A stretch of DNA of 64,000 bases, from the NCBI RefSeq assembly GCF_040954835.1, contig NC_090696.1:72043722-72107721 (forward strand). The letters run 5' to 3'. Origin of the DNA: Lepisosteus oculatus (lineage: Eukaryota > Chordata > Actinopteri > Semionotiformes > Lepisosteidae). Position numbers and translations under genes: made by a program. Shown piece after piece: positions 41,918 to 63,872 of the stretch (position 1 is its first letter; each line of letters begins with the position of its first letter). The notes beneath the pieces were generated by a model, which was not told the DNA's origin, did no database searches, and saw nothing but the letters and a program-made list of their open reading frames with translations.

Positions 41918-44734
41918 ATGCTGGGGTACACTACGGACCAGAGGCTTCGCATGCAGCAGCTGGTGAAGCTGCGGCGACAGTGGCTGAAGGACCATGAGCT
42001 GAGCCCCCGAGAGCCCGTCCTGCCCCCCGCAAAACCGGGACTTGTGGAGAAATTCTGGTTACGGTTTCTGGAGCCCAGAAGCCTGTGGAGGCTTTACGTG
42101 AGTAGATACGAAAGAACGCTCCTGTTCAGTTGAACCCCGTGTGCTTGCTTTTCGGGGTTACCTTGCTTACGTCCGATCTAGGCCGATTACTCGTCTTGCT
42201 CTGTGTGTGCTCCCTAGTGGTGTAACTTTCCCCTGCAGATTTCCGACAAGGGGGTGACATTGTCTTACACTGTACATCAGTAATGCATTCGCGTCCTGAC
42301 CTGTTGAAGACAATTACCTTCTCAGTGGGCATATCAAAAAACTGTCTGTCCGCCCAGTTAAAGCTTGGTGCCTTTGTTCATTGAGAACCGTTTCATGAAT
42401 TGTGACGAGAATCGAAGTACGCCTAATAATGACTGTCCTCGTCTTAAAAACAACAACAACAACAACAACAATAATATATAAATTAAATACAGCCACAGCT
42501 TATTAGATCCGAGAACAGGAGGCATTTTTAAACTAAAGCGTTTCAGGAGATTGGAACAAGCTGCCCAGCCATGTTGGTAAAGCTGACGCTGATATACCCT
42601 GGACTCTTGCAAGAAAGGTCTGCATGATATCCGTACAACAGTTAGCCAATATCTGCTTGACCGGCTGAATGGCCTCTGCCTTTGTAAACTTTATGTTCGC
42701 AGGCAAATGAAGAGGAAAGTCTAGTGATGGGATGCACAGTTTTATACTTGCTGCTGTAGGCCTCGTGGATAATCCCAGCAGATTCTCAGATGTGTGGTGG
42801 AGGACTGTCGCTGGCAATACATGTCTTTAATTCAGTAATGTGGCTCGGGTTGGAGTCACTTGAGTTCGGCCTGAGCAATGTTGTTGAATGCTGTTTTGTG
42901 TCATGGTATTGTATCGTTGCTGTATTGTATTATTGTCATAGTAATGTTATATGAATATGAGCTGTTGATGTACAAAATTTCCTTAGGGGCAATGAAGACT
43001 AATTCAATTCAATTCAATGTATGTATGAATGTATCAGCAACCCTGTGATAGGTTGGTCAGCTTATTAAAGAACACAGAAAATCATCATTTCCCCTCTCTA
43101 CTTGATTTTGCTAAATGGTGCAATGAGTTCTCTTTGAAGTCAAAATCTAGAAACAAGTTATTGATTTTAGGGAAAATGCAATACCCCTGGCTCTGTGGCT
43201 AAGGATCTGTGCCTGTGGCTGGAAGGTTGCTGGTTCGTATCCCGCAGCCGGCAGAGGGATCCTACTCTGTTGGGCCCCTGAGCAAGGCCCTTAACCCCAA
43301 CTGCTCCAGGGGTGACGTATAAGTGTCTGACCGTGTGCTCTGACCCCAAGCTTCTCTCCCTGTCTGTGTGTCTCATGGAGAGCAAGTTGGGGTATGCGAA
43401 AAGACAAATTCCTAATACAAGAACTTGTATATGGCCAATAAAGTGATCTTATCTTACCTGCTGTAATTAATGGTCTGTGGAGAAAATTGTCAGTGACTAC
43501 CAAGTACTTGGGAGTGGACTTGCAGATAAAAACCTAAGACTGGACAAATGTGACACCATTTAGAAAAAGACCAACAGAGACTCTTTTTTTTCCTTCTGAA
43601 ACTCACCTATTTCTAGAACAATTTTAAGAACTATAAATATTTTTAGAAATATTTTAACACTTTTATTGAAAGTGTCTTATCACACTGTCTCAGTTGTTGG
43701 TTTGGCAGCATTAGTGTCATTAAATGAATTGAGTTGGGGGAAAATTAGTGAAAATAAGTAGCAAAATAATTGTGAAAAATCAAATAAGATATCCTCTACA
43801 AACAAAAAGTTGTACAGAAGGCCAAGAGCATTATGAGGTGTGTGTCTCACCCCCTCCATTCTGAATTTAAACTTGTCACATCTGGGAGATGCCTCTGTGT
43901 CCCCGGGTGTAAAAGGAATCTCAAGTATTGACTGTCTTCCTTATTCTTATTGTTGTACTGCGGTGTGTCATAACATAATTTTCCCCAGAGGATAATAATA
44001 AGCTTGAATTGAACTATTTTTAACACAAGCCTTTCTTTTCAGACTTATAAAGCCTACCGGGTTGGAAAATGGTCCTTAACTCAGCTGATAATTCCTGCTT
44101 GGATTTGTCATTATTATGTCAAGTATCATGTTGCGGTAAGTTTGGGATGTACTAAATACAAATATAAATTGCCATCACAATTGGCAGATGAGTAGCAGCA
44201 CAAAGCCATTTTTCTTTTAGAATATATTATAGTATGTAACTATGTATTGGCTACCTGTGTATTTCATTTTAATACAGCTTTGCATGCAGTTATGGATTCT
44301 AATGATCTGTTCTTCATTTGTTCTCTTTATTCTAGATGAAACCATATGGTATTGTAGAAGCAAAACCAAGGCTGTTCCCTGTAAGTGTTATTTACCTTGT
44401 CTAGTATCCCATGTCTTATGTAGCGCTTAATAGTGTTTGAATACTGAAAATCTGCATATGGAAGACTAATCCGTTGTGCCTTCACTTTCATCTCCAAATT
44501 CATTGACAAACATTTGTGTGAACTAGGATGTCAGCCAAATAAGGTTCATAAGGAAATTAATGCTGAAGGCAATTCAGCATGTTGAAGTTAGTTATTCTGG
44601 AGGAAGCAGGTATGAAAGTGTTGAGCAATCCCGTGTGATTCGTATTGCTTGATTTATTTTAGGGGGACACAATCATGGAAACTGGAGAGGTCCTTCCTCC
44701 CTTCCCGGAAATGGAAAGCTTTGGACACCACTGA
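41918..44734 (+). CDS. ndufb6: NDUFB6, complex I subunit B17
   Basis: Accessory subunit of mitochondrial NADH:ubiquinone oxidoreductase, in the membrane arm of the inner membrane; not itself catalytic. Four coding exons, all phase 0: 41918-42097, 44043-44135, 44336-44380, 44663-44734, giving 129 residues against 128 in human. Recognised from [34 protein letters not shown], a single membrane helix around residues 70-88 ([19 protein letters not shown]), [18 protein letters not shown] and the C-terminal [12 protein letters not shown]...GHH. No cleavable presequence is evident, as in the family. The ATG at 41918 is the first in frame after a GC-rich leader, and the downstream residues align from residue 1. 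AATAAA at 44800 is 66 bases past the stop. Intron 1 holds a V-SINE and LINE tails. SMIM27 lies downstream in tail-to-tail orientation. Confidence 0.97.
42449..42473 (+). repeat. (CAA)n microsatellite
   Basis: About seven CAA units in NDUFB6 intron 1. Confidence 0.7.
42545..42680 (+). repeat. Dispersed repeat, longest copy of the GGAACAAG family
   Basis: Exact 18-base core (42553-42570), then a body ending GGCTGAATGGCCTCTGCC (about 42663-42680). This copy shows most of the unit that the copies at 5256, 8770 and 55528 share in part. Confidence 0.55.
42890..43020 (+). repeat. LINE-like 3' end with AATTC-type tail
   Basis: AAATTTCCTTAGGGGCAATG is followed by a repeated AATTCAATTC tail (about 42998-43018), the usual shape of a fish LINE 3' terminus. 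Confidence 0.5.
43186..43457 (+). repeat. V-SINE-like tRNA-derived SINE, near full length
   Basis: An A-box-like GTGGCTAAGGATC is followed by a B box (GGTTCGTATCCC, 43232-43243), the core CCCCTGAGCAAGGCCCTTAA and a tail ending GGCCAATAAAGTGATCTTAT. It lies in NDUFB6 intron 1 in sense orientation. Confidence 0.8.
43800..44020 (+). repeat. LINE-like 3' end
   Basis: Ends TTTTCCCCAGAGGATAATAA followed by GCTTGAATTGAA, a fish LINE 3' terminus pattern. It stops just before the branch/acceptor region of NDUFB6 exon 2 (44043). Confidence 0.45.
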
Positions 44735-44799: not shown

Positions 44800-44805
44800 A
44801 ATAAA
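44800..44805 (+). terminator. NDUFB6 polyA signal AATAAA
   Basis: 66 bases after the stop on the gene strand; a compact 3' UTR. Confidence 0.7.
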
Positions 44806-44809
44806 ACTA

Positions 44810-45500
44810 ATTTACAAATGCCACCTTCATTTTATTTGTCCATTTTCTGTTTTGTGCCATGTACAGTTGATCTGTTTGAGTTGAAATCCTACAACAGAAG
44901 GGGCAGCAAATCCTAACCTTAACAGATCGTGTGGCGGACAAACATCAGAAATACAGAGATTGTACTTCTCTCACCTCAGTTTATTTACCTAAGGATTTTA
45001 ATTTTCATAAATGTTAATTCAGGGTATTTTCAATGCCTACTTAGAAGTTACACAAACTGCATGATCAGTCTTGAGCCTTTACAGTGTCAATTACTCCCAG
45101 CAGTTAGGTTAGGATATAAAGTATAGGATTGTCTTATCTAAACAGCCATTACGATACTTTTCCCAAATTAAGTACTAAAACCCTTTATCACTGCCTGAAT
45201 AATAAATTGTTAAAACTTTAAAGCTACTCTTCAGCTTTCTCTCTTTTAGCTTTGGTCTTAATTGCCTATTTAATGGGGTATCTTGATGGCTGGGTAAGGT
45301 CTTGAAAAAAGTATGAAAGTCCCAATTGATTGTCCTGCAATGAAGTAGAGAAGGCATATTTTTAACACGCATAAAGATCACAAAGTTCTAAATAATCTTT
45401 GTTAAACCAGAAGATTGAAATGCTATGACACTATATGGATTCTTTTTAAACCACAATGAAGCATATTAAGAACATTCTGTGTTGATCTTCAGTGGTGCAC
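44810..45500. other. Spacer between NDUFB6 and SMIM27
   Basis: AT-rich, no coding content. Probably includes the SMIM27 3' UTR (minus strand). Confidence 0.4.
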
Positions 45501-45519: not shown

Positions 45520-45852
45520 TACTTTGGATCCCAGAGGGACATCGTGGATATAGCTATCGTTTAGGAGGATTTTGCTGGTCTACAGAGATGTGCATGGAGT
45601 ACTGACATACAGAAAACATCATGGATTAATACCCTCATTCATTTCCTTTTTTTTTACTATATAATGTTAGCATGCCCTAAGGGGTTGGGCAGCCAGTTGA
45701 CCTTGGACACCTAGAGGTTTTTTTTCTTCTTACTAAGGAGTTTTTGGTTCCTCTCCTCTGTTGTCTTCTGTTCTGTATTCACAAAATGTATGGTTACTTG
45801 CATTAAGTGCCTTGTTGTGAAAGGTGCTATACAGACATAAATTGAATTGAAT
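45520..45852 (+). repeat. LINE-like 3' end (L2-type tail)
   Basis: Ends GTGAAAGGTGCTATACAGAC followed by ATAAATTGAATTGAAT, the familiar 'gcgctatataaataaattgaattg' end of fish L2-like elements. Only the untranslated end is left. Confidence 0.6.
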
Positions 45853-45971
45853 ACAGTTCATTCCATCTCGCAGAAAGTTTATTTATCCATAAGGTTCATC
45901 TTCCTTTTGCAGGTTGGTCTGGGTGGTACATTTAACCCCCTCCGTCCACACGCCTCAGTTCCTCAGGGACT

Positions 45972-46822
45972 TCAGTTATTGATCTTGAATTGCTTTTCCA
46001 GCTGCCACTGTGCTGCTATTCTCGTTCCATATATGACGTATCCCCAGGACAGGAGTACCACTGCCAAGAGTACCTTAGAAATAAAACCATTAAACTTCAA
46101 CATAAGTCTTTTAATGAATTTGTATGAAAATGCTTGCTGTATAAATCACACTGAAAATTAAATCTCTTGCCCCCTGAATAATCACTAATAAGAGTTGAAT
46201 GCTTTTTCCATAATTTGAAAACAAAAATACTGGAAACTATGAACAATAACAGTTGCCATAACCGGCTTTTAAAATTTGTTTTTTTTTTACAATATTACAA
46301 ATAGTATTTAAAATATAAATTTATGTCTGAACAGCAAAATCTGCACACAGTTTTGCCGGAACTTGATTTGAACCTCAGACTAATTTGTTGAGAATCGTAA
46401 AACTAATAAATGGCTCAGAACGGACTTTCTGAAGATACTGAACACTGAAATACATCCATCCGTTTTACTAAATTTTAAGGCTTGAGTTCCCCCCCAATAG
46501 TTGGTTTTAAGCCACTTAAAGTAGGAAACATAAAAAATATATATTGGAATGAGTTGTGCATTAGGGTAAGACGCTTACAGTTTGAATTTATAACAACACG
46601 GGGAGTTTGAATGCTCAGAGTTCACATACAGGGGCAAAAAACAACATCGCAGCAGAACTGATCAACTCCCTGCACCCCGTCCTTTTTAAATGGTGCAATT
46701 TTACAGAAGCGAACCTAAAAACTATATTCTCGGTTTCATTACGTACATTATGAAGGACAGGTTTGTCGGTCACTTACGAGTGAGTACATCCTGTCGAGAG
46801 CTCTGCGGCTGACATAAATCAT
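45972..46822 (-). CDS. smim27: SMIM27, small integral membrane protein (48 residues, two exons)
   Basis: Exon 1 46822-46778 encodes MIYVSRRALDRMYSL and ends at a GTAAGT donor. Exon 2 46073-45972 follows a TTTATTTCTAAG acceptor and encodes VLLAVVLLSWGYVIYGTRIA...KQFKINN and a stop. The join is phase 0. The protein has a basic N-terminus, one hydrophobic helix (about residues 14-32) and a basic tail. The VSRR.LD..YS..LLA.VL.SWG..IY pattern matches human SMIM27 (TOPORS-AS1) as I know it, and so does the position: between NDUFB6 and TOPORS, opposite strand to both. Human SMIM27 is about 55 residues. Exon 2 alone could start at an ATG at 46103 (43 residues) but would lose the conserved N-terminus. 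Function is unknown to me. It is divergent from TOPORS, so the two may share control DNA. Confidence 0.87.
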
Positions 46823-46829
46823 GTTGTCT

Positions 46830-47530
46830 CACATCAGGAACACCTTGTACCCGCCTGGCACCTCCGGACAGCTTCTGTCTAATAAATTTTCACCAGTAGC
46901 AACAGCCTTTGTCTAAAAAAACGACACCATCAACACGCTGCGGGTTAGTCCGAGTAAACACCGCCTTGCATTGCGGAAAGCCAACTGATTTCCAAAGAGA
47001 CTTCACCCACAGCGCCACCGGGCGTCAGCTATTTTAATGCCCAAATCTTATTTTTTTTACATATGAATCCGCAAATGCAAGATTTAGCCAATTATTTAGC
47101 TCGTTGAAGCTACGAACATTATTCACTGTCGATATTAAATATTTGGAATACGCAAATAAAACCACTTGTGAACAATATTCAAAGGGTAGGATAATGCCTT
47201 AAGTTGAGATTCATTCATCAAACCCTTTATGTTGTTCTAATTAGTTTAGTAATAAACAGTCAGCATGACTGTAAGTAAACAAAACAGGTCGCACTGTCAC
47301 TAACATGATTTGTTTTACTTCCACATTTTTTTCCGCTTATGCTCTCCGTATAGATGTAGACTCCGCCGCTTTTCCCCGCGGGAGACGTCAGTGCAATCGT
47401 ACACTGTGTCTTAAGAGTAACTCCTGAGAGAGAAATCATATTGTCACCCATACTTCTGTGTGTATGAATTAGTGTTCTCATATTGTCGCTGCTGACGAAT
47501 AAGCAGTTGAAAGCGACTCAAAACTGCGCG
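46830..47530. promoter_or_regulatory. Divergent SMIM27/TOPORS intergenic region
   Basis: Contains the SMIM27 leader and start region (46830-47000, GC-richer) and then AT-rich DNA. No clear TATA box for either gene. Confidence 0.4.
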
Positions 47531-47900
47531 GTCACGGGTGGGTGACCCCACCAGAGGCCCTGTACGCGTTGGCTCCTCCGGGCCGCCAGGGGGCAGGAGC
47601 GCCACGGCCTCCCCTTCGCTAACCGAGCCCTCCCTCCCCGTCTCGCAGCGCAGGCCTAAAACTGCAGGCTCGCTGTGGGGAGAAATTGTTGTATCCATAA
47701 CACGGATATCGGCGATTTTTTGTCATCTTGGTAGGTGAGAATGACGTTTAACTTTGAAGTCTGTCCTACATGACGTTTGATTGTGATGTCTGTGACGGGT
47801 GACCGTTTCCTCTGACGCACCGTGCCCGCGAAAGACCGGCGCAGTGGCATAAAAAAAGCAAAACTTAAAAGAGCCACTCAGCTGCTCTTGGTAGGTAAGA
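47530..47900 (+). promoter_or_regulatory. GC-rich TOPORS promoter and probable non-coding first exon
   Basis: CpG-containing stretch (47530-47670), then a region ending in strong donors: TAG/GTAAGA at 47895, and a near-copy GGTAGGTGAGA at about 47730. No ATG opens a frame that would join TOPORS, so a 5' UTR exon is most likely. Exact start not visible. Confidence 0.5.
47583..47596 (+). promoter_or_regulatory. CTCF-like motif CCGCCAGGGGGCAG
   Basis: A close match to the well-known CTCF core (CCACCAGGGGGCGC type) in the GC-rich region between SMIM27 and TOPORS. Binding is inferred from the motif only. Confidence 0.55.
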
Positions 47901-49876
47901 AAGCTTTTGCTCTGCCTATTCTTTCTTGTATATCTTTCATGTCGTTTGCTAGTTCAGTTTTAAGGAACTATGGTGGGCTAACGAGTTGTGTATTGGTACG
48001 TATTGGTTATCTAGTTCCTAGGCGGGGTTAAGACTACGAGATGCTATTTCGGGAAATAACCCAGTCACTTAGGCCTCTACAATGCGAAAGGAAGGGTTAT
48101 TATGGTTATTATGTACCAACAATATTTCAGTAGATATTTAGTATTTCAGTAGATATTTAGCCAATGTGTGCATAATGGTATCTGCCATGTTTAACCAGGT
48201 CGGGGGAGAAGTGGCAGTCTAATCAAAATGTCTTCCAGTACTTGTTCCCAGGTCTTTCCGGGGGTGCAGATAGGAAAATGACAATCGATAGTTTTTAGTT
48301 GCGTGTGGTTCCTAGATTTCAACACGGAATCACGTTTGTGGACGGCGACGCCTGCACTGTGTTGGTTATCGAGAGTCAGCCGGAATGTCACTGTGTCAGT
48401 GTCAGTTCCGCTGGCTCAATGTCCAGCCTGCTTTCGCTGTAATACTAGTTTTTAAGGAATAATACAGGCAGCCTGCTCAAAGTTCACAGTACTGTATTTA
48501 TTTTTAGCTGTGTTAATTGTATTTTAGCATATTTTCTGGCACACATACAGTACATGTACCCATAAACATACTGTACAGTTGTGTAGTTTATTTTACAATG
48601 GGAGGCTTTATGCCTGTAGGGTTTGATGAACGTTTGTCGTTTTGGTGAAATATATCGTTACGGTCTAGTAAAAAAAAAAATTAGCACTTATTCAATTTTG
48701 CCAAAGTATTTATTGAACGGCATATATAGAATGCTTAAAATATTAACAGGTTTGTTCAAGTCGTCGTATCGTTTATATAACCGAGATAAGCTAGGTTCGT
48801 AAGAGAAGGAGACATGGCGAAATTTCAGTGACGTCTGGATACGTCAGACTGTCTATATTTCTGCATTTACTGTAAAAAAATGGAGCAGAAATGCCAAAAC
48901 GATTTGCATGCTCATCCAAAACAAGTACATTTGTTTTGAGGAGTTACATAAAGTAAATCTAATGATTTCGGTAATACACAACTGCAAAAAATACACTTTT
49001 TGGCACACAGAGCTGTTTTAAGTAGTAGTGTCTTTTGCCGTTCTTGTCTGTGAGCCTCAGTCACTGGGACAGTTTCAGCAGCATCAGGTGCCACACTAGG
49101 ATATCTTTTCCAGTGGCATATAATACAGAAGTTATGTTATCCAAGACGATAGCCTCATTATTTATAGTTGAATTCTTGTCAGACTGTATAATACTTAGTT
49201 TTGTGCAAAGTAAAATGTCTAAGGAGGCCTATTTAATTAAATGTTTTGGTCACACTAACCCGATATTTGAGGTGTGAAAGGTATTCATACTTTTCAGATG
49301 CTTAATCTGTGAGATAGCGTGAACTAGAACATAAGAAATGTGTTCAAACAAATCAGATGTCATTCAACCGATCTTTCTTCTTTGGTTTCTAATAGCTTAA
49401 TGAACTAAATGTACTTGGACTCTGAGGCATTCATGATTGTTTATTGGAACGAACTTCTTAATTAAGTAGGAACAGAACTTTTCTTTTTAATTAAAAAGAC
49501 TCATTATTATTGAATACAACAAAGTTGTGGCATTGTTCTTCAATTTGCAGGGTTTCAAGATCTTTTTTCCTTGATTTGTAAGCCTTTTGGCTGACTGCTA
49601 AAAGCTGAGACATCTACAAATGCACTGATATGTGGATGCATTGTTGATGTCCCTTTTATTTCTAAACACCTATATTTCAATCTAGTATTTAAGGAATGAT
49701 TTCACTCCAGCTAATACCTGTTTTAATTATTATTGCACTTTATGATGATTTTTTGTGGTTTGAAATTCTCTGTTATTTTTAAGATATTGAAAAAAGACTG
49801 CACAACACTGGGGTATATTATAGTGTTGAAATATACTTTATAAATTGTAACACGCTTTTGTTTTTTTATTTTTGAG
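47901..49876 (+). other. TOPORS 5' intron
   Basis: AT-rich, no coding pattern. Ends in a T-rich tract and TTTGAG at 49871-49876, a plausible acceptor, which puts the exon start at 49877 just before the ATG. Confidence 0.55.
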
Positions 49877-49879
49877 GTG

Positions 49880-52765
49880 ATGGCATCTACCAAGAAGAAG
49901 TTGAGGATGCGCAAGAAGTTTTCCCCCAAAGATGGAGCCAGCAAAGTGTCACAGACTGTATTGGTGGAAGCATCTCCAGACTCCAAATGCCCCATTTGCC
50001 TGGACAAATTCAACAACATGGCACACTTGGACCGCTGCCTTCACAAGTTCTGCTTCCGGTGCATACATGAGTGGTCCAAAAACAAAGCAGAGTGCCCGCT
50101 ATGCAAGCAGCCTTTCAACTCCATCTTCCACACCGTAAAAGCCGAGGACGACTTCAAGGAATTCGTCCTGCGCCCGACGGAAAACGGCTCTTTTGGCAGC
50201 CCAGACGGGCATCGGTTCAGGTACCGCACCACCTTGACAAGAGAGCGCAGGCAGTTCAATCCCCCGAGGAGGACATCGCCACCCCCAGACAATGGGGTGA
50301 TGTTTGAAAGCCTGAGCAGTGCATCCGCGCAGCAGCACAACAGAGGAATTCACCGCATGATGCTGAGGCTGGCTGCAAGGAGGAGAGCCCAGATTGAGGG
50401 AAGGTCTGTGCGTCACATGCGGGAACAAGAGATCATCAACTTCAGGCGGGCTCTGTATCGCACTGGCGTGCGGGTAAGGAGTGTCCGAGATGGGGGGCGC
50501 TATCGGGACATCTCTGCTGAATTCTTCCAGAGGAACCCAGCTTGTCTACACCGTCTCGTGCCCTGGCTGAAAAGGGAGCTGACTGTGCTTTACGGTGCTC
50601 ATGGCTCTCTGGTGAACATTGTGCAACACATCATCATGTCCCGCATCACTAGATACAACATGGAAGACCAAGCCATCCAGGATGAGCTGCGGCCCTTCTT
50701 GCTGACTCGCACTGACCACTTCCTACATGAGTTTATCAGCTTTGCACGGTCCCCTTACAATATGGATGCCTATGACCAGCATGCCATTTATGACTGCCCT
50801 GCACCGTCTTATGAAGAAGGCAGCAGCTCGGACTCATCAGTCATTACCATTTCGGCCGATGAAGCTGATTCTGGAGAGCGGAATCGCCCTTCCCTCAGCG
50901 TGGCAGGCAGTGGCTTGAGCCAAGCGCCGTGGGACGATGAAACTCCTGGCCCATCTTACTCAACAGTAGAACAGGTACAGCTGCCCTCACGGTCTGTCAG
51001 TGAATCAGAGTCTGAGAGCAGCAGAGAGGAAGAAAGGGCACCTGGGCCTTCTCGGCAACAGAGCAATCAAGTAAAAACTGATCCAGCCAGTAATGAAGGT
51101 GGCAATGCCTCATCAGGTGAAGAAGACTGCGTGATTGTGGGTTATGTCAAGCCAATGGCTGAAAGGACACCTGAACTTGTCCAGCTGTCCTCTGATTCTG
51201 AAGAGTCTGTCAACAATGAAACTGCAGAGGTACCAGAACAACCTGAACACATTAGATTCTGTAGCATTAGTCCACCGTCTACTGTATGCTCCTCACTGTC
51301 TAAAGACAAATCTCCAGACAGATGTGATCAATCCAGCAAGATGTTGGAGAGGAAAGACCAAGATCGGTCATCATTTGGTGAAACAGAAAGGCAGCCTTCT
51401 GAACGCAGGAGTTCACCTTCAGCAGACAGAGAGAGGGCTTCGAGAGAGAAAGACAGAAGCAGTTCAAAACATTACAGCAAAGACAGACATGCTTATGAGG
51501 ATGACCGAAGGCGACACAGGCAAAACAGGTCAAGAGACAGAACGAGGTCACGGAGCAAAGAAAGGTCTCATCATAGGAGCAGGAGGAGATCTCGAAGCAG
51601 AGAACGGAGTTGGTCAGTAAGGAGCCCAACCATATCGATAAACAGCGATAGCACGCTTTCAAGAAGCAGGCAGCATTCAAGATCACGCAGTAGAGACTAT
51701 CCTTCCTCTAGGGATGCTATATGGCCCATAAGTCGGGACAAGGACTACAGCTACTCTAGACACAACCATGAGAAATCTTATTCATACCACTGGGACTCCT
51801 ACAGTCGCTACAGCAGAGACAGAGATAACAGCGATTCATTGTATGTGCAGAACAGGTCCTATTACACTAGTTACTGCATGAGCCCAGGCTATGGCGCCTG
51901 TTCTCGCTCCCGAAGTAGAAGCCGCAGCAGTCACAGGGATTCCCACCACCGCCGGGAAAGGAGGCGTTCAAGAACTTTGTCCAGCACAAGTTCCCGGGAA
52001 TCCCATGGAGCTCACCGAAGATCAAGGCTTGAAAAACCAAGTGGGAAAAGGAAATACAAGACTCGCCATTTGGAGGCGACCTCCAAAGACAAAGCATCCA
52101 AGTCGCACGTATCCTCCTCATCCAGCCTCCGGGAGAGGAAGGAGAACAGCGAAAGACATCACAAGAAGTCCCGAAGGAAGAGCCGAAGCCCGAGTGTGGA
52201 GATCGTATACGAGGGGAAGGCCACGGGAGAGAGCCGGCGGCACCACAAGAAGAAGAAGAAGCACAAAAAGAAAAGCAGGAGGCACAGAAGCAAGGACAGA
52301 GCACCTCAGAGATCGCCGACTGTTATCACCATCGACAGTGACAGTGACGGCAGTGTGAGAGGCAAAGATTGCCAGATCAATGAAAATGAGGTTTCTACCA
52401 CTACTGGCAGCTGTGCTGAGACCACTGTGCCTGAAACTAGCTTGCAAGTCACTGAGGAGCGAGAGCTGTCAGTTGATCAGGACAGTCATGGGGACGTGGT
52501 GAAGACTGAGGCAGCCTCTGTAATAGATGGTCTAATCAGTGACAAGTGTGACATTATGTGTAGTGTAATTGCACAGACATCCTTTGCCTTGGAGGGTGAT
52601 GCAAGTAGCTCAAGCCCTTCGAACGCCAGGGAACGCCACTCTTTGGAGCAGAGGGATTCAGGAAACTCCACAGCAGCAGAGGCAGGGCCCTTGGCTACTG
52701 GTTCTCAGACTGAATGTCCAAATGAGAGCCCTCACCTGAACTATGCCTGCACCCCCCCTCCTTAG
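49880..52765 (+). CDS. topors: TOPORS, RING E3 ubiquitin/SUMO ligase, arginine/serine-rich
   Basis: Nuclear RING ligase that binds topoisomerase I and p53 and can transfer both ubiquitin and SUMO; also linked to cilia and retina in human. 961 residues in one exon. Visible: C3HC4 RING with C37, C40, C53, H55, C58, C61, C72, C75; the conserved block RRNPACLHRLVPWLKREL-type around 215-235; SUMO-interaction-like motifs VITIS (about 320), CVIVGYV (about 417), PELVQLSSDSEE and VITIDSDSD (about 815); a long RS-rich region (about 500-720); KRKYKTRH; and a Lys/His-rich stretch (HHKKKKKHKKK). The frame also stays open one codon upstream to a GTG at 49877. The ATG at 49880 aligns with an internal start (MASAAKEF-type) of human TOPORS, whose longer form has about 65 extra N-terminal residues. 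No such extension was found here. PolyA signals at 52836 and 53303. Confidence 0.97.
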   Translation: MASTKKKLRMRKKFSPKDGASKVSQTVLVEASPDSKCPICLDKFNNMAHLDRCLHKFCFRCIHEWSKNKAECPLCKQPFNSIFHTVKAEDDFKEFVLRPTENGSFGSPDGHRFRYRTTLTRERRQFNPPRRTSPPPDNGVMFESLSSASAQQHNRGIHRMMLRLAARRRAQIEGRSVRHMREQEIINFRRALYRTGVRVRSVRDGGRYRDISAEFFQRNPACLHRLVPWLKRELTVLYGAHGSLVNIVQHIIMSRITRYNMEDQAIQDELRPFLLTRTDHFLHEFISFARSPYNMDAYDQHAIYDCPAPSYEEGSSSDSSVITISADEADSGERNRPSLSVAGSGLSQAPWDDETPGPSYSTVEQVQLPSRSVSESESESSREEERAPGPSRQQSNQVKTDPASNEGGNASSGEEDCVIVGYVKPMAERTPELVQLSSDSEESVNNETAEVPEQPEHIRFCSISPPSTVCSSLSKDKSPDRCDQSSKMLERKDQDRSSFGETERQPSERRSSPSADRERASREKDRSSSKHYSKDRHAYEDDRRRHRQNRSRDRTRSRSKERSHHRSRRRSRSRERSWSVRSPTISINSDSTLSRSRQHSRSRSRDYPSSRDAIWPISRDKDYSYSRHNHEKSYSYHWDSYSRYSRDRDNSDSLYVQNRSYYTSYCMSPGYGACSRSRSRSRSSHRDSHHRRERRRSRTLSSTSSRESHGAHRRSRLEKPSGKRKYKTRHLEATSKDKASKSHVSSSSSLRERKENSERHHKKSRRKSRSPSVEIVYEGKATGESRRHHKKKKKHKKKSRRHRSKDRAPQRSPTVITIDSDSDGSVRGKDCQINENEVSTTTGSCAETTVPETSLQVTEERELSVDQDSHGDVVKTEAASVIDGLISDKCDIMCSVIAQTSFALEGDASSSSPSNARERHSLEQRDSGNSTAAEAGPLATGSQTECPNESPHLNYACTPPP

Positions 52766-52844: not shown

Positions 52845-54385
52845 GTTCGGAGATCAAATTATCTTTTTTTTTAAAACAGGTGCATCTTATGAAAGTATCT
52901 TTATGTAATCGGTGATATTCCCTCAAAAACACCCAGATGTAAAGTTTAGTGATTTTATCCATTTTATCCTTTCACTCTAGACTTGAGAATATGTAAATTT
53001 TCCACTTCACCATTTACACGTTATTGAGCCTGTGACTTGATAACTGAAGGTGTACAAACCATTCCAGTCACTTTTAGAAGTTGTACAGACAGTGTACAGT
53101 CATTCTCAGGGAAAAGACTTGACAAATAGCTGCTTTTCACAATGGTGATAGTGACCTTCAAGCATTATTCTTGAGGTAATGCGAAATGGAGCAGTTGTGG
53201 ATTTTGTTTAAATACTGCGTGTACCATATTTTAATCGCATAAAGACTACGTTTTGGACTGAGGACAGTTGAACTTCCACCTTGCAAGAATTGTTATAAAA
53301 GAAATAAATGTTTAAAACAAGTCTTTTTTTTTTTAAGTTGCATTGTATCTAGAGCTTTGCTTTTGCTTTGGTCAGTGAGCGTGCTCAGCCCTCAGTCGAG
53401 GGATGTCTTAAAATGTCCCATTACAAAATACTAATTTTTATTCAGATTGTAGCAAAATGACATGATTTTGTTAATTTAAAAGGTTTATTTTAGACTTTTT
53501 ATATCTATCCCAATAAGCTTCCTTTCCATTTTGTTTTTACGAGAACCACTTTTGCTGCAGAACCAAATTAAAAAAAAAAATACTTTGAAATACGAACATA
53601 TCTCCAGCCTGGCTGGTTAGTTGGATTAAATGGTTATGATCAAATGAATAAGAATTGGACAAATTGACATAACGGGGGACTAGACACTCAAGTGAAGCAT
53701 TGATTTTTATTCTGTCTACAAAAAATTAAAAAGTAGAAAGCCTGGAAAAACCTAAGGTTACAGCGATTTATGGGACTGTTATAAACTGTTTTTTAAAGTG
53801 ATTAATAGCATTATTTATTGCAAATAAGATATATTTGATTGTTATCTCCCTTTTAATCCTTCATCTGACTTGGTGTTTCTTAAAGAACAGTTTTTATATA
53901 AACTGCATGTTCTTAATTTTAATTTTAATTTCACCTGCCCCCTTTCTTACAATCCTACATCACCTTGCTTCCAGTGTCAGTGGGAGGAAGTGGGTGTATC
54001 ATGGTGTTTTAAGATACAAATGTCAAGGTGACAAGCCTGAGAATAGCAGTGGAACGTGATGTGATTCATGGTGTAAATTGATAATCCTATAAGTACCTGT
54101 TATTTTTTATTTACTTTTTTAGATTTTTCGAGTTTTATCTTTCAATAAGTGTTTCGTTGGGGGATGTAATATAAATGAGGGAAAATTTCTAAAATGTACT
54201 GTAGATTAATATATTGACTTGTGCCAGCAGCCATATCTAATGAAGAAATGAGTTTACAGGGTCATCTCTTTCTAAATGCACAGACTGGTTGTTTGGAATT
54301 TTTCAGGGGGTTTCCTTTGGGAAGTCATCGCAGCCCCATATCTTCAACCAAGTATCGTGCACATATTCCTAAGTCATTACTTACC
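52845..54385. other. TOPORS 3' UTR and intergenic DNA
   Basis: AT-rich, no coding content or recognisable RNA gene. Confidence 0.45.
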
Positions 54386-54929
54386 AGCAGCCATATCACC
54401 CTGCAACTCACAACTGGCAACCCACTGAAGCTCAGCAGGTGTGAGCCTGGTCAGTACCTGGATGGGAGACCTCCTGGGAAAAACTAAGGTTGCTGCTGGA
54501 AGAGGTGTTAGTGGGGCCAGCAGGGTCCATGTGGATCCTAATGCCCCAGTGTAGTGACGGGGACACTATACTGTAAACAGGCGCCGTCCTTCGGATGAGA
54601 CGTAGAACCGAGGTCCTGACTCTCTGTGGTCATTAAAAATCCCAGGGGGTTTCTCAAAAAGAGTAGGGGTGTAACCCCGGCGTCCTGGCCAAATTTCCCA
54701 TTGGCCCTTGCCAATCATGGCCTCCTAATAATCCCCATGTATGAATTGGCTTCATTACTCTGCTCTCCTCCCCTCTGCTAGCTAATGTGTGGGGAGCGTT
54801 CTGGCGCACTATGCCTGCTGTCGCATCATCCAGGTGGGGCTGCACATTGGTGGGGGTGGAGGGGAGTCCCCATTACCTGTAAAGCGCTTTGAGTGGAGTG
54901 TCCAGAAAAGCGCTATATAAGTGTAAGCA

Positions 54930-54966
<37 letters not shown>
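54386..54966 (+). repeat. 5S-rRNA-derived SINE, full length, (ATT)n tail
   Basis: Head (54386-54490) follows 5S rRNA: CCATATCACCCTG, GAAGCTCAGCAGG, AGCCTGGTCAGTACCTGGAT and GGGAGACC. A body of about 380 bases ends with the LINE-like unit AAAGCGCTTTGAGTGGAGTG and GCGCTATATAAGTG, then (ATT)n at 54930-54966. The head carries the 5S-type internal promoter region. Other copies lie at 40281, 56499 and 57837. Confidence 0.9.
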
Positions 54967-54967
<1 letters not shown>

Positions 54968-55499
54968 TTCAAATTACAGGTTTTGCAAAGTCAGGTAACT
55001 ACAGTTCATTGTGACACATTAAGAGTCACAGCCCAGCCACGGAAAAGCAAATCTGCTAGATCATGCTTTGTTTCTGACCACAAAATGACCACGCTCCCCC
55101 GAGGGGCTGCAGTAAGGAAAGCCCCCATCTCTAAAAAACAGTTCAGGATGCAAAAGACTAAAGACACTTCATTCATAAAACAGCAGCCCTTTATTCCTGA
55201 CTGTCAGCTCAAAATACCGATAAAATAGGAACCAAAATTATGTAACTGAATATTACAGGTTGGATAGTCTTTCACTTAAAAAAAACCGAGTTATGTTAGA
55301 ATGTGATCATGATAGTATTGCAAAGAACAAAGTCATATTTGTTACAATTGAGATCCAGAAAATTAATGCGACATTTATTTACTTCTCTGTTTAACCCTTT
55401 AATAAAATTCCGCAAAGTAAAAGGAGGTGGTACCAGGTGTTAAATAGCAGCATTTACTGTATCATCGTGGTTGGGATCAGGGGGCTCTTTTAAGACTGC

Positions 55500-55560
55500 A
55501 AGCAAATGGTCCTTGACCTTCCTTACCATGTTGTTGAAGCTGATGCACTGGCTTCTTTGA
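55500..55560 (+). repeat. Fragment of the GGAACAAG dispersed repeat
   Basis: CATGTTGTTGAAGCTGATGC (55527-55546) matches the segment after the core in the copies at 8770 and 42553. Confidence 0.35.
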
Positions 55561-55820
55561 AACAAAAGTGCTATATGAGATACTGTATTTGGATCAGTTA
55601 CAGTAGGTACTAGAATGGCCACATTACCTTCTCCTGTTTCTTAACATCCTTATGTTCTGTTTTCAGCTTACGTTTTCCAGGAAACCGGACGTCCACCAGC
55701 TTAAAAATGGTACAAGTGGGGTCTAAAATCCTTCTCAAACAGTTAACTCTGAGCTCCGAGAGCCCTCCCACATCAGCACGATGACTTCTTGCGCATTCGT
55801 TTAACTCTGCGAACCGGAGA

Positions 55821-56077
55821 CTGAAAGAAAGCTGAAACTGAATCGTGAGATTTAAAACTGCATGTACGGAGATGTGAAAATATTAAAAGTGTTAGCATAT
55901 TAATTGTGGGTTACAAACCTCTACCTTAAATTTTTTAAGGCCACCCCTTTTACTAATGTTGCGCTGTGTCAAAGAAAAAATCAACAACGCTCATGTCTCC
56001 GGTTTCATTTTTCTCTACAGTTTCGTTTCTGTTCCAGCTCAGCTTGCAAAACACGTCATTAACTTGAAGCGAAACTA
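55821..56077 (+). promoter_or_regulatory. RIGI promoter with clustered IRF/ISRE-like motifs
   Basis: Three GAAA-pair sites lie within 350 bases before the ATG: GAAAGAAAGCTGAAACTGAA (55823-55842); a minus-strand pair in GGTTTCATTTTTCTC...AGTTTCGTTTCT (56001-56030); and AAGCGAAACT (56067-56076). Each contains or nearly contains AANNGAAA, the IRF core. RIGI is known to be interferon-inducible. Binding here is inferred. Confidence 0.5.
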
Positions 56078-56168
56078 GGAGGGGTTTGTGTAAGGTCTCA
56101 ACAGGCTGTTTATCGAGAGTGCAGCTTCTTGTTTTACCGTCTGTTTCTGCAGAAGGACTAAACTAAAA

Positions 56169-59100
56169 ATGTATGAATTAGAAAAGGAAAACTTAAAGAG
56201 GTTCAACAGTTATATTGTCAAAATACTCCGCCCTTCCTACATCAAGGAATTTATGGTGGATTATCTCCGTCCAGGTATGTCAAGTTATAATTTATCGCAA
56301 TGCTGCAAAGAGGGCCTGATAAAAAAAACAACAACAAATTGTGTCGTTAGGAATGTGACGGCTTCGATATAGAAAGGGTGCGCTGTGTGCTGAAGTGATA
56401 GTTTTTTTTTAATCGGGATAATTTTTTAAACCACTGGCCGAATGCAAACGAAAGTCAACAAGCTCAACAAGCAAGCAGTAACTTGTACTCGCATTGCGGC
56501 TACACATGGGTAGTGGTGGAGGGGAGTCCCCATCACCTGTGAAGCACTTTAATTGGAGTGTCCAGAAAAGTGCTGTATAAATGGAATTATGTTTCGTATT
56601 ATTAGTAGGAAAATAATCGGTCGCACCAGTGACTGAAGTCTCGTTTTGCACTGAGCATCCAGTTGGGAACTTCGACTGTGCATCTTGGGCACAGCTCCCA
56701 CCTCACAAATCTTCCCTTCACCTGTCAGACGGCGTAAGGAGACCCACCTGCTACATATTTACATTTTCATATATACTGAATTAGAGACAGTGCAGAGAAA
56801 AAGGACTTGCATTAAAGCAGCACAAAGAGGACGGTCTCCCGTGGTGTTCGTGTGCAGTCTGGGTGACTGACTACACCTCTCGTCACCCTTTGGGCAGTAA
56901 ATAACAAAAGGCTTCAAAAGCTTTAACTTTTGAAGTTCAATAGGGTGAACAACAGCAAATCTCAGTTGCTTGACAGAACTGTCCGTTGTGCTAATCATTG
57001 AAATTCTTACATATTAAATTAGTACGTTGTTGGATGTGTACAACGTTTTTGACTGCTGAGCTCTGTCTTTATGTTATACTATATACAGTATGTACCCAAG
57101 TGCATATGGTAAGCAATATTTCCGTGTGGTGGTGGCTATTTTTTTTTTTGGCATTTGTTTTATTTCGGTACTTTCATGAGATGATTCAATATTCTAAACG
57201 TTAAAACTTTTCCCACTGCATTTACAAAAATAAAACGTTAGAGTCTGACAGTAACAGGTTGAAATTGTAGATTTGACACAATTCAACTCACAAACTCAAA
57301 GACCCAATATCTCCTGAAGACTATGGTTTATGCCCTACAGAGAAAGCAGAGCAGATTATATCAGAAGAGGGTATATCTGTCACAAGCGCTGCAGAAATGC
57401 TCATGAGGAGCCTGTGGACACTGGACCAGGATGGGTGGTTTGTGGCCTTTCTGAATACACTGAGGGCAGAAGGTAGGTTTAAACAGTTGCAAATAAAGAC
57501 CTGCGTTTTATCATTTTGCATCGGAGAAGTGGACTAGGGGTGGCATGGTGGTACAATGGTAAGCATTGTCGCTTTGGCGCTCTGGGGTCCTGGGTTCGAT
57601 TCTGGGGCTGTGGTACTGTCTGTGTGGAGTTTGCATGGTTTCCCCGTGTTTGTGTGGGTTTCCTCCAGGTGCTCCAGGTTCCTCCCACAGTTCAAAGACA
57701 TGCTGGTAGGTTAATTGGCTTCTGGGAAACTTGGCCCTGGAACCCCGAGTGCGTGCGTATTCACGTTCATCTGCCCTGCGATGGACTGCTGTTCTGTTCA
57801 GGGTGTATCCTGCCTTGCACCTGTTGTTTGCCAGGATAATAATAATAATAATTGCTTACACTTATATAGCGCTTTTCTGGACACTCCACTCAAAGCGCTT
57901 TACAGGTAATGGGGATCCCCTCCACCACCACCAATGTGCAGCCCCACCTGGATGATGCGACGGCAGCCATAGTGCGCCAGAACGCTCACCACACATCAGC
58001 TATCAGTGGGGAGGAGAACAGAGTAATATAGCCAATTCATAGAGGGGGATTTTTAGGAGGCCATGATTGGTAAGGACCAATGGGAAATTTGGCCAGGACG
58101 CCGGGGTTACACCCCTACTCTTTTTGAGAAGCGCCCTGGGATTTTTAATGACCACAGAGAGTCAGGACCTCGGTTTTTACGTCTCATCCGAAGGACGGCG
58201 CCTGTTTACAGTATAGTGTCCCCATCACTATACTGGGGCATTAGGACCCACATGGACCGCAGGGTGAGCGCCCCCTGCTGGCCCCACTAACACCTCTTCC
58301 AGCAGCAACCTTAGTTTTTCCCAGGAGGTCTCCCATCCAGGTACTGACCAGGCTCACACCTGCTGAGCTTCAGTGGGCTGCCAGTTGTGAGATGCAGGGT
58401 GATATGGCTGCTAGGCTCCGACTCCCCCGGTGACCCTGAACTGAACTGGAGGAAGCTCACCGATAGCCAAAATCCATATACTTTAATTTTCTGAAAAGTC
58501 ACCCGCACAAATAGTGGTTTCATTTGATGTTCAGTATGTTAGTTTAATATAGACTTAGACTTAGAATCAACATTAAAAACGTAACGCTTCCTAACGTGAC
58601 AAATGTGCCCTTTGTCCCTTTTCGTTTGAAGGTTACACTGGACTTTATGAGGCGATTAAAGAATGGGACTTTAAAAACATTGACAGTATGGAACCTTTTA
58701 AGCATCTGTTGGATCGTATTGAACAGTCTTTCACTAAACAGATAAAGCCGACAGAAATGATCAACCACATGAAGGACTGCCTCCTTGCCCGTGAATGTGA
58801 GGAGATCATGGCAGTAGGTGGAAATCGGTGTCTTACTTTTCTTTTTAGAGTGCGTCCTTATGGAATTTTGTTAAGTCCCTGGTTTTCTATAAAGCTGGGA
58901 AAATATCCATAGACTTGGAATATGACTAGTTGTTAAGTTGCCTTCCCATGTTGCGTTGCTGCAATAATGTTGGAAGGAAATGAAGGAAAGCTTTGGAATA
59001 GCTTGGGTTATGGAAACCTTGAGATGAACGTTTGGTCTAGGTAACAACAGATTGATTACCCCTGTGTTCTAGTAACTCCCTTCAGTCATCCTTACTCTTC

Positions 59101-62100
59101 CCATCCAACCTTGGGGTGTTGATGTGAGGAATACTGGCCCCATTCGGGATCACTCACCATTCGCATCCTGTACCAATCAAAGGATGTATTTTTCGTGGGA
59201 CAATTATCATTTGAACAGATAAATATTTACAGGTAGCTTCCCCTTTTCAGCATTGACGTTTCAGTTGGTGCATGGATTGACAGGATGAGATCAGGTGGTT
59301 TAATATAAGCCTTATTTTGTTCTTGGTCAAGAAACCTTAAGTGGGGATGTAAAGAAAGTACACATATCAGAAACACAGTACAGGGCACTATACGATCTCA
59401 CTGTGATCTACATTTACATCAATAAAGGCCTGAATGCATTGTTTGGTGTTCATTAATGATGCTAGTGCCCTGAGGTGTCTTGTCATTTTCCATGAGAGGA
59501 TACACTTCTTGGTTCCATTTAGTTCCACATTTCATGGCTTTGTGTACATTTCATTCCACATGTTTCGTAGTAAGTTCTTGGGAAGGGGCTGAATAACTTT
59601 ATAAGTGCCCTGAATATGTCACACTGTGACTAATAATAGTGTTTTTCTCAGATCAGTCTTCAAAAAGGGAACATTGCTGGAGCTCAAAAGTTTACTGAAT
59701 GCTTGAAAAGGTCAGACAAATCCAACTGGTACAAGACCCTGACGCTAGCGCTGCAAAACTGCAATTACATGGTTGCCTACGAGTTACTAGATGATACGGG
59801 TATGTATTTTCTGCTGTCGGCTCCTTCATCAGCAGCTTTCTGGTTCTGCCGTTTGAGTCCCTGCTCATGCAGGTTAAGTTTCTACAAGAACAAGAACTGT
59901 TGAGGTGTAGATTTTTATTAATAATAAAGAAGCACAGTACAGGTTTAGTAAATTATTTCCATTTTTCCTGGGAATGGTGAATAAAATATCGAGGAGAGTG
60001 GTTTAAAAATCTAAAAAGGCATTCAATTGTATTAATATTCAATTCACGCTGGTTAAGGGCCCCTGCAGAGCAAGTTATTGTTAACAATAATATCATTAGC
60101 TCCAGGCTGGGGTGAATGACGAGTGTGACTCATCCTTGTTTTGGAATTCTTCCTGTAGAAAATGAAAAGGCAGCAGATGACAGTGAGGCAAATGAAGGTG
60201 AAGCCACCGTTCGCTTTGAGTACAGAGAAGAAGCTGACGTGGACTGCCTAAGTGGAAACTTTAATGGACAGCCAGGTATTACACCTTTAAATAATAACGA
60301 CAATGTAATCAAATAGTGTGCGCTCAAAACACAGAAATATTTTACATTTTCAAAACGCCCAAGATGTTGTTGTTTGTTGTTTTGGCTATTTCAAATTGGA
60401 TGAGCAAAATGTACAGCAAAAATAAGTGGCAATCATTTGTTTTTATTATATGTTTTAAAGGTTTTGCAATACTCATTTGTAAGCTTATGAATATGTGATA
60501 GTACGAATGTACTATCGTGCCATTGTCATGGGTATAGATACTGAATTCCCCTGCCTTAGTGATGGAGCTGGGCTTAGAACACTGATTGGGGAGTTGCACT
60601 GCTTATCAGTCACGCCATGTTCTTTTTATGAATTCTCATTCATCAGCACTCAATCTATTGGATACCATTTCAAGTGCTTGAGGCCCGCACTTTCGTATGT
60701 CACACTTAAGTCCCAGAACCGCAGTTTCCGTGGCAGCAGCCACACCTGTAACGTAATCATACACGCGTTCTTTCTGTTTCAAAAGACTTCATTCATGACC
60801 GTTTTCACATTTTACTTTATAACCCCTATTCACGTTAAAATGTGTTTTGGGTCTCTTTCCAACAATCGCTGCTGAGCATGTTTAAATGTTTTGCTGCAGG
60901 AACGAGTAACAGCAGCTCCCTGGCTGAATCCCGTGCAAGGAGGAAGCTGAGGAAGTACCAGGAGGAGCTGGCAGTGCCGGCTTTTAACGGGGAAAACACA
61001 ATCATCTGCGCTCCAACAGGTACCGTACAGTAAGAGACCTGAGACCAGGTCTGTCCCTGTGAGGCACTGATAAATCCTTCATCTCCCATTTTTGTGGAGA
61101 ATAATGTATTTTTAATAAAATTGTTATTCCAGATATTTAGGTAAGGGGGGGGAAAGGAGACATTTCTTTCAGGTGATTGAATATTATGACAAAAATGTGT
61201 TGTGTAAATTTAAAATGGGTGTGGGAATAGAAACACCAATTACTAATATTTCTGCTCCCTCTCCTACTTTTTGGAAGAAGTGAATGAAAGTGTGAGTTTA
61301 AAAATGATGTTTGTTTTCTTTGTAGGCTGTGGAAAGACAGTTGTGGCTCTTGCCATCTGCGAAAATCACCTGAAAGCTAAACATGAACGGAAGCCTAAGA
61401 TTGTCTTCATGGCCACAAAGGTGGATGTGTATGAACAGCAATACGCACTGTTCCGCAGTCATTTTATGGATGGAAATGAAGAAGTTCAGTAAGCACAGAT
61501 TTTAGACAATTTTCTCTCACGCCCTCTGGCTGCTCCTTCTCTGTCCTGTCTCTCTTTTCCGGTTCTCTGCTGTCCTTCCGGTGTTTCTCTCTCTCTGGGA
61601 CTATATATTTCCGGGTCTTGCACTCTGCCCTCGCTCAGCATTGACGTTCGGATGTCCTGAAACCCGCCTAGCACCAGGTCGCCCCACGTCCGCTACCTGA
61701 GGGCATAGGTTTCTATACGGCATTTCCTGAACAGCTGAGCCCGGGCTAACTCCCGTCTCTCCGCTACGCATAGGGTCTTTTCACTCTCCTGCCATTCCAC
61801 GGTTTGTCCTCTTCGACATCCGTGACATTTTCTATATTTAATCAGTAATCATTTTGTGTGTGTGCAGTTCTTGTTAATAGCATGTAATTGCAAAGTTACA
61901 AGACATCAGTGATGTCGTTTTAAACTGTAGGATGATTTGATGAATCCTTGTTCACAAAAAATAAGAACGTTTGCAAATGAATAGAGGTCATCCCGAAAGA
62001 ATAATAACTTTACTTCTGCTATCTGCCTTGAGCTCACTTGTTTTCACAGAAGTTATATAGGTTAAAAAGTTTGTTCCTTAAGCCTTCCTTTCTGGTGATT

Positions 62101-63872
62101 CAATTAATTTTTTTTCTGTATGATCGCTGAAGCCGGAATATGGTGTATTAATTACAATGTCAATGTCCATAACCTTCATTCTCTGCCCATTACAAAAACG
62201 TAAAGGATTTTCTTCAATATGAATAAATGTTTGGGAGACCCTCTTAAACGACACCGCTGACATTTTGAATGTTTTATGTAGGGTTGCAGGTCTCTGCGGT
62301 GACACAGGAGATCATATTCCCGTGGGAATGATTATACAAAACAATGACATCATTGTACTGACGCCCCAGATTTTGGTAAATGCTATTAAAACTAGAGAGG
62401 TGCTATCACTGTCTCTCTTCACTCTCCTGATATTTGATGAATGCCACAATACCACTGGAAAGCATGCCTACAATATCCTTATGACCAACTACCTGGACTG
62501 CAAAATAGATAAAAAGAATGGACCGCTGCCTCAGGTACAGTAAACGGGCCTTTTTCAATCATATTCCAGGCTTCCATTTCCTGAACTTCCCAATTCAGTG
62601 CCTGTGTCATGTATAAGGAGCAAAGTTCACTTAGAGATACTGTGTGTGTGACAGAACACCAGTCTCAATCACAGTAGTGTAAGACGTCTTGGCCTGTGTC
62701 CTTATGCAGGATCCAGGCCAGAGACTCCTGCAAAGGTTTGATATTTACACCAAGATTGGTGATGAAGGAGATTGTTCTTTTTTCACTGCAATTCCTACAT
62801 TATGTGTTAATATGCATTGTTGAATTCATGGCAGGTCCTCTTTATAATATTCTACAGTAGTCTAAAATGTTCTTCATTTACAGCAGGAAAGATGAATAAA
62901 ATTGCCTTTCTTAGGGTTTAGGTTTATTAAAATACAGTATATAATTTTCTCTATACACACAGCTGCTTTTTTCACATTAGCGTGAAGCATAGTGTTACCT
63001 GAAGTCTCCCTTCAAAATATGCAATCTCAAATGATTCTTCAGGCTTTGTCAGGAGTCATATGGTTTTCCAAGTATAAGGAGGTGGACAAATATGCCTGTT
63101 CTCCACTTATGAGACAACATCCTTATCAATGGCTGTAAAACACTTTTAATTGAGGAGAAAGCAGTACAGTATATTTATATACAGGTATCTGAATATATGT
63201 GTATTCAGGCAACTATGAAATATACATTCTCCAACAGTTGTACAATAGTTATGTCTTCAGGAATGCAAATATATGAGCACAACTACTGAAAGAAGAATTT
63301 AGGAATTTATTGTTCTTTACAAGATACAGGAACTTTCAATTCCAGTTTTATCTCTAATGCGAAATCTGCTACATTTGATCAAATACTACAAACATTCCAG
63401 ATGTTTTCCTGGAGATGCTTTCACTTTAAAAACTTTAAAAAATGTCCCTGCTAATATTAAACCCATAAACATCTCCTGGACATCTGATCTGTGAGTATCT
63501 AATAATAGACAACAGTATAAGTCTTTCACTAGATCACAATGTAACTCTTTGTTAATAAAAAATAGCTTATTTTTGAGGACAAGTTCACGTGATCAGAGTT
63601 TCTAATTGTTTACTCTCGGCAGAACAACCAAATGAAACCGTGAAAAACAAAGTTAACTTCACAGTTTTGTTATTCCCTCTGTTATTATTATCGTTTATTT
63701 GATGAGTAGATTGTTGGGCTGACAGCTTCAGTTGGAATAGGAAGTTTCAAGAATGAAGATGAAGCAGCTCATAATATATGTCAGCTGTGTGCAAACCTGG
63801 ATGTGAGGGTCATTTCAACTGTGAAGGAAAACCAGGAGGAACTTACATCATTTGTAAATATCCCTGAAAAAG
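56169..63872 (+). CDS. rigi: RIGI/DDX58 (RIG-I) RNA sensor, first nine coding exons, partial
   Basis: Cytosolic sensor of foreign double-stranded/5'-triphosphate RNA that signals to MAVS. Exons: 56169-56274, 57341-57472, 58632-58813, 59652-59799, 60159-60275, 60900-61019, 61326-61488, 62282-62534, 63710-63872. Phases agree, giving 461 residues, about half the protein; the rest lies beyond the window. CARD1 (about 1-90) and CARD2 (about 95-190, with GYTGLYEAI and ARECEEIM) are followed by a short acidic linker (190-228), then helicase domain 1: motif I APTGCGKT with K272 (split by the intron after 61019), Ia with VYEQQ, Ib [15 protein letters not shown] at 375-378 and III LTAS. Numbering is within 2-3 residues of human. 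The ATG at 56169 gives the conserved CARD1 helix ([18 protein letters not shown]). The residue matching human K172 is Thr. Introns 1, 2 and 7 hold SINE and LTR insertions. Confidence 0.96.
56499..56592 (+). repeat. 5S-derived SINE, 3' fragment
   Basis: Tail part only: GTGGTGGAGGGGAGTCCCCA, GTGTCCAGAAAAGTGCTGTA, matching 54845-54925. It lies in RIGI intron 1. Confidence 0.75.
57539..57836 (+). repeat. tRNA-derived SINE (fish type)
   Basis: Head GGTGGCATGGTGGTACAATG with a B box GGGTTCGATTCTGGGG (57591-57606), then the widespread fish SINE body (GTGTGGAGTTTGCATGGTTT, TCCTCCCACAGTTCAAAGAC, CTGGTAGGTTAATTGGCTTC). The 3' end runs straight into the inverted (AAT)n tail of the next SINE. In RIGI intron 2. 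Confidence 0.85.
57837..58413 (-). repeat. 5S-derived SINE, full length, inverted
   Basis: (AAT)n at 57837-57854, tail unit AGCGCTTTTCTGGACACTCC, body, and the 5S-like head on the minus strand up to about 58413. Closely similar to 54386-54966 over its length. In RIGI intron 2. Confidence 0.9.
58267..58283 (-). promoter_or_regulatory. CTCF-like motif inside the 5S SINE
   Basis: AGCGCCCCCTGCTGGCC is the reverse of a CCAGCAGGGGGCGCT-type CTCF core. The sister copies are altered here: CCAGCAGGGTCCATG near 54518, and the site is cut by the deletion in the copy at 40281. Confidence 0.5.
61515..61827 (+). mobile_element. Solo LTR, 313 bp, with TTTTC target-site duplication
   Basis: Same LTR as 14471-14799, inverted. 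It starts TCTCACG (TG end changed to TC) and ends CGTGACA, with 5-bp direct repeats TTTTC at 61510-61514 and 61828-61832. A TATA-like CTATATATTT lies near 61602. In RIGI intron 7, 26 bases after exon 7. Confidence 0.85.
62535..63709 (+). other. RIGI intron 8
   Basis: 1.2 kb, AT-rich; no repeat recognised and no coding content. Confidence 0.6.

Follow-up and report, generated by a model that had tools for sequence, protein, structure and literature searches.

In the gar genome, the minus strand between NDUFB6 and an exon that we take to belong to TOPORS carries two short open frames separated by an intron, and the locus raises the question of whether these frames form a single coding gene and whether such a gene would be orthologous to human SMIM27 (small integral membrane protein 27), which is known in human by name. 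For human SMIM27 (TOPORS-AS1), a presumed sequence of 55 residues was used as the reference throughout; scores, identities and chance controls given below all depend on its correctness. Three fragments of this presumed human sequence had no match in the text of open PMC papers. An earlier note on the same DNA, made with no database searches, had proposed an SMIM27 gene from a presumed human pattern, and is thus an agreeing lead and no independent test of the reference. We put the probability that the minus-strand gene is the orthologue of human SMIM27 and is coding at about 0.93, a figure that covers identity and coding status and does not extend to mechanism. This reading is based on a match of the joined frame beyond chance, its register across the splice junction, the order of the neighbouring genes, the CpG content, a hydrophobic span and the predicted helix.

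Structure of the two-exon gene

The features of the locus and its surroundings are collected in Table 1, with positions referring to the window, i.e. the whole stretch of 64 kb that was analysed. Exons, frame, splice signals, polyadenylation signal, order of neighbours and hydrophobic span are read directly from the DNA. When the exons are joined in phase 0 after codon 15, the product has 48 residues, MIYVSRRALDRMYSLVLLAVVLLSWGYVIYGTRIAAQWQLEKQFKINN, and each exon occurs a single time in the 64-kb window. The intron has GT-AG ends, with a donor, CTC/GTAAGT (slash at the exon boundary), that has the full consensus on the intron side and is weak on the exon side, and with the acceptor TTTTATTTCTAAG/G. 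Since the hexamer GTAAGT is not rare, with 25 copies on the two strands of the window, such a donor alone means little. The start ATG at 46822 is preceded by an A at position -3 and, six bases 5′, by a TGA in the same frame. Directly 5′ of this start lies the upstream frame ATGTGA, judged from its sequence to be a candidate that could lower or regulate translation.

Table 1. Annotated features around the SMIM27 locus, by position in the 64-kb window
Feature	Position	Strand	Remarks
TMEM215	22.0-22.7 kb	-	E 6.3e-119
NDUFB6	41918-42097, 44043-44135, 44336-44380, 44663-44734	+	four phase-0 coding exons; AATAAA at 44800
AATAAA polyadenylation signal	45878..45883	-	88 bases 3′ of the SMIM27 stop
SMIM27 coding exon 2	45972..46073	-	33 codons and TGA; most of the membrane span; tblastn match
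SMIM27 intron	46074..46777	-	phase 0, 704 bases, GTAAGT...TTTCTAAG
SMIM27 coding exon 1	46778..46822	-	15 codons, MIYVSRRALDRMYSL; identical to presumed human SMIM27 at 9/15 residues
Minimal upstream ORF ATGTGA (start and stop)	46829..46834	-	from the sequence; same frame as the main ATG, within the presumed 5′ leader
Raised-CpG interval	46600..48099	.	covers exon 1 and the gap on its TOPORS side; divergent promoter presumed
TOPORS main coding exon (name presumed)	49880..52765	+	ATG 49880; RING finger, then RS-rich region
CARD and helicase exons	58697-62492	+	domain matches, downstream of TOPORS

The 15-codon exon with a GTAAGT donor that the earlier note had claimed was confirmed on the minus strand (46822-46778), as was its 33-codon second exon in phase 0 (46073-45972 followed by the stop), joined to the first across the 704-base intron. 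Its further statement, that neither exon is long enough alone, goes too far for exon 2: an intronic ATG at 46103 lies in frame with this exon and opens it up to the stop (43 aa), and exon 2, being readable alone from there, has an open frame of its own. The note also went further than the evidence allows in dating the gene to the common ancestor of bony vertebrates and in stating that gene finders would miss it. As a type, the SMIM27 gene is ordinary.

Just past the SMIM27 polyadenylation signal, a TTCAATTCAAT-type stretch (45829-45852) is matched in inverted orientation at 43007-43030, with 88% identity over 24 bases; this inverted TTCAATTCAAT-type pair may mark the edge of a dispersed repeat.

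Similarity to human SMIM27 and chance expectation

Aligned with the presumed human SMIM27 sequence, the 48-residue product was found to be identical at 23 and similar at 35 of 45 positions without a single gap (E 9e-16 as a single comparison), and the identities continue in register from one exon to the other, with 9/15 in exon 1 and 14/30 in exon 2. The pattern VSRR.LD..YS..LLA.VL.SWG..IY, reported in the earlier note, is indeed present in the joined frame and lies within this gapless match, so that it is common to the gar product and to the presumed human protein. The two would also agree in having one membrane span and in lying on the strand opposite to NDUFB6 and TOPORS, between these two genes; they differ in length (48 vs 55 residues), and their C-terminal ends are unlike in both length and sequence.

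The chance level of such a match was assessed with a two-exon scan of both strands against the presumed human sequence, in which first exons with a length of 6 to 40 codons that started with ATG, ended before GT and scored at least 15 were joined in phase 0, ungapped, to any AG 70-3000 bases further on. The best score in the window, 120, fell exactly at the SMIM27 coordinates. Among the top three hits of each strand, the best on the plus strand reached 45, and those on the minus strand (120, 49 and 48) all used SMIM27 exon 1, which means that other first exons on that strand score 48 at most. For comparison, the best scores in 200 first-order Markov windows had a mean of 38.5 (SD 5.2) and a maximum of 55, and 200 shuffled queries run on the real window gave a mean of 37.4 and a maximum of 51. 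Exon 1 alone scores 37, a value reached by 2 of 500 random windows, and the strength of the match therefore comes from the frame as joined and from exon 2, the latter being found on its own by tblastn with the presumed human protein (E 1.9e-7 in 64 kb).

Searches of wider collections returned no relatives. Pfam-A gave 0 families for the product at E up to 10, and no solved structure related to the whole product or to exon 2 was found at E up to 10. With an alignment of the gar product and the presumed human sequence, 58 stretches in GTDB genome contigs and 16 in IMG/VR contigs matched a pattern, and 0 were confirmed in either set; an absence of bacterial, archaeal and viral relatives is expected for an animal gene.

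Gene neighbourhood and presumed promoter interval

The position claimed by the earlier note, between NDUFB6 and TOPORS, held up on both sides. The joined NDUFB6 product (129 aa) matches NDUFB6 chains of complex I with a best E of 2.2e-50, and the exon on the other side is read as TOPORS, a name that we assign from a presumed TOPORS sequence, as a RING finger fits many possible proteins. SMIM27 and NDUFB6 are convergent (tail-to-tail), with approximately 1 kb between the polyadenylation signals at 44800 and 45883; the former is the first NDUFB6 signal, and another possible one is found at 45201. The coding parts of SMIM27 and of the exon read as TOPORS are arranged head-to-head. Further downstream, the stretch 62337-62492 has its best match in RIG-I chains (E 2.1e-18), and the minus strand of 53001-62900 yielded 0 families at E up to 0.05. 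The order of the block in the window is TMEM215-NDUFB6-SMIM27-TOPORS-RIGI, presumably the same as in human 9p21. In the gar, the coding part of SMIM27 (to 46822) is clear of the TOPORS coding exon (from 49880), unlike what the label ‘antisense’ in TOPORS-AS1 implies, and in the absence of an overlap this label is unfit for the gar gene as far as coding parts are concerned.

Two further elements of the window lie apart from the SMIM27 gene. Within intron 1 of NDUFB6, the stretch 43185-43450 looks by eye like a fish-type SINE, with a tRNA-like head and a simple tail; an ARAGORN scan of the whole window found no tRNA. A kinase-like exon is present at 7500-7916 (Pfam PK_Tyr_Ser-Thr, E 1.1e-7), and by eye it resembles the kinase-homology region of membrane guanylyl cyclases.

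CpG observed/expected ratios of 0.72-1.02 were obtained in seven 300-base windows starting at 46600-47800, against 0.44 for the whole 64 kb. G+C in 46600..48099 is only 0.35-0.56, and raised ratios also occur outside the interval (0.71 at 46200 and 0.52-1.48 at 48000-48800), hence it has no sharp island boundary. Raised CpG across exon 1 and the space on its TOPORS side is the pattern that a divergent promoter would give, and such a promoter is presumed here. Between 46880 and 47900 there are seven TGACG half-sites and one CCAAT, which were counted with no shuffle control and are given no weight; the same scan found no full CRE, NRF1, ETS, YY1, GC box or TATAAA as written. Near the presumed start of TOPORS, at 47741-47793, lie two direct repeats of 24 bases, which start with ATGACGTTT, have a spacing of 29 and are 83% alike.

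Alternative readings of the locus

Three other readings of the locus were weighed against that of a coding, spliced SMIM27 gene. The transcript might act mainly as a non-coding RNA in which the short frame is incidental, in keeping with the description of human TOPORS-AS1 as a non-coding RNA in the cancer literature; among open PMC papers, the name TOPORS-AS1 occurs in 24 and the name SMIM27 in 6. This would leave unexplained a residue-level match that keeps to one frame across a splice junction and is far beyond chance, and coding and non-coding roles could moreover coexist; we regard a mainly non-coding transcript as very improbable. The probability is a little smaller again that exon 2 is translated unspliced from the ATG at 46103, giving 43 residues that begin with MLKFNGFISK, continue into exon 2 and lack exon 1. 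From 46103 the frame runs open to its stop and the tblastn match reaches two residues into the intron, but by eye the ten extra residues are unlike the presumed human SMIM27, while exon 1 matches it at 9/15 positions and the joined alignment is gapless, for which reasons this reading was rejected.

Smallest of all is the chance that the locus is a decayed or processed SMIM27 remnant. Only the donor, weak on its exon side, would fit with decay: the intron is present with canonical splice ends, the frame is intact, the polyadenylation signal is in place and the syntenic position is kept, and the window contains no second copy of either exon.

Predicted product and possible role

As to the coding SMIM27 gene, its hydropathy peaks at residues 12-30, with a 19-residue mean of 1.96 (2.39 for the presumed human SMIM27). 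For the 33 residues of exon 2, AlphaFold2 run on the single sequence predicted one helix (residues 2-32, mean pLDDT 89.2), and the model says helix and little else. Along the product, a short basic head (R6, R7 and R11) is followed by the one helix, whose second half contains a conserved S-W-G, and by a polar tail. An amphipathic tail at residues 32-45 was considered and dropped, its hydrophobic moment being low (0.14).

We infer transcription, splicing, translation and membrane insertion from these features. Transcription of the gene would run along the minus strand in the direction leading away from TOPORS, and the transcript would be spliced once in phase 0 and polyadenylated at approximately 1 kb from the first NDUFB6 polyadenylation signal; translation of the spliced RNA would give a single-pass membrane peptide of 48 residues. 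Small single-span proteins of known role often act on a larger membrane protein by lying against it. The basic head, the single helix with S-W-G and the polar tail would be compatible with an accessory peptide whose helix packs against a larger protein or complex of the same membrane, that of the secretory pathway or of the mitochondrion. Such a part in a membrane complex is the most likely mechanism that we can propose, and we hold it tentatively, at less than even odds. Identical positions were not significantly clustered on one face of the helix (permutation p 0.29, 0.08 and 0.21 in three ranges), which gives no support for a specific packing face.

Implications for TOPORS-AS1

To our knowledge, SMIM31 and SMIM27 are not homologous. 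The two cases are alike in that SMIM31, according to the passages concerned of PMC6886504, is a short coding frame found by conservation in a transcript formerly called non-coding; those passages, on small proteins such as SMIM31, make no mention of SMIM27. In the main text of PMC8021562, the 554-base transcript NR_033992.2 (TOPORS-AS1) is treated as a lncRNA, and neither SMIM27 nor micropeptide occurs there (0 occurrences). Work on TOPORS-AS1 is summarised in a review (PMC10935982). No description of a function of the SMIM27 peptide was found in the open PMC literature, in the portions of main text that were covered, and no open PMC paper matched TOPORS, NDUFB6 and zebrafish together.

The conserved frame suggests that a protein is made from human TOPORS-AS1, an RNA often treated as non-coding in the studies on it, and given both this frame and the treatment of NR_033992.2 as a lncRNA, a coding reading of TOPORS-AS1 needs ruling out. 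Among the effects ascribed to the RNA is a lowering of beta-catenin signalling in ovarian cancer cells. That effects of the human ‘lncRNA’ are carried, partly or wholly, by a conserved membrane peptide of 48 to 55 residues and not by the RNA appears unlikely to us at present, at long odds.

If the frame has been kept between the gar genome and mammals, the human gene would be protein-coding and under long selection, and papers in which TOPORS-AS1 was overexpressed or depleted as a non-coding RNA would face a possible confound. Gar SMIM27 would also provide a distant sequence with which conserved contact residues of the membrane peptide may be sought.
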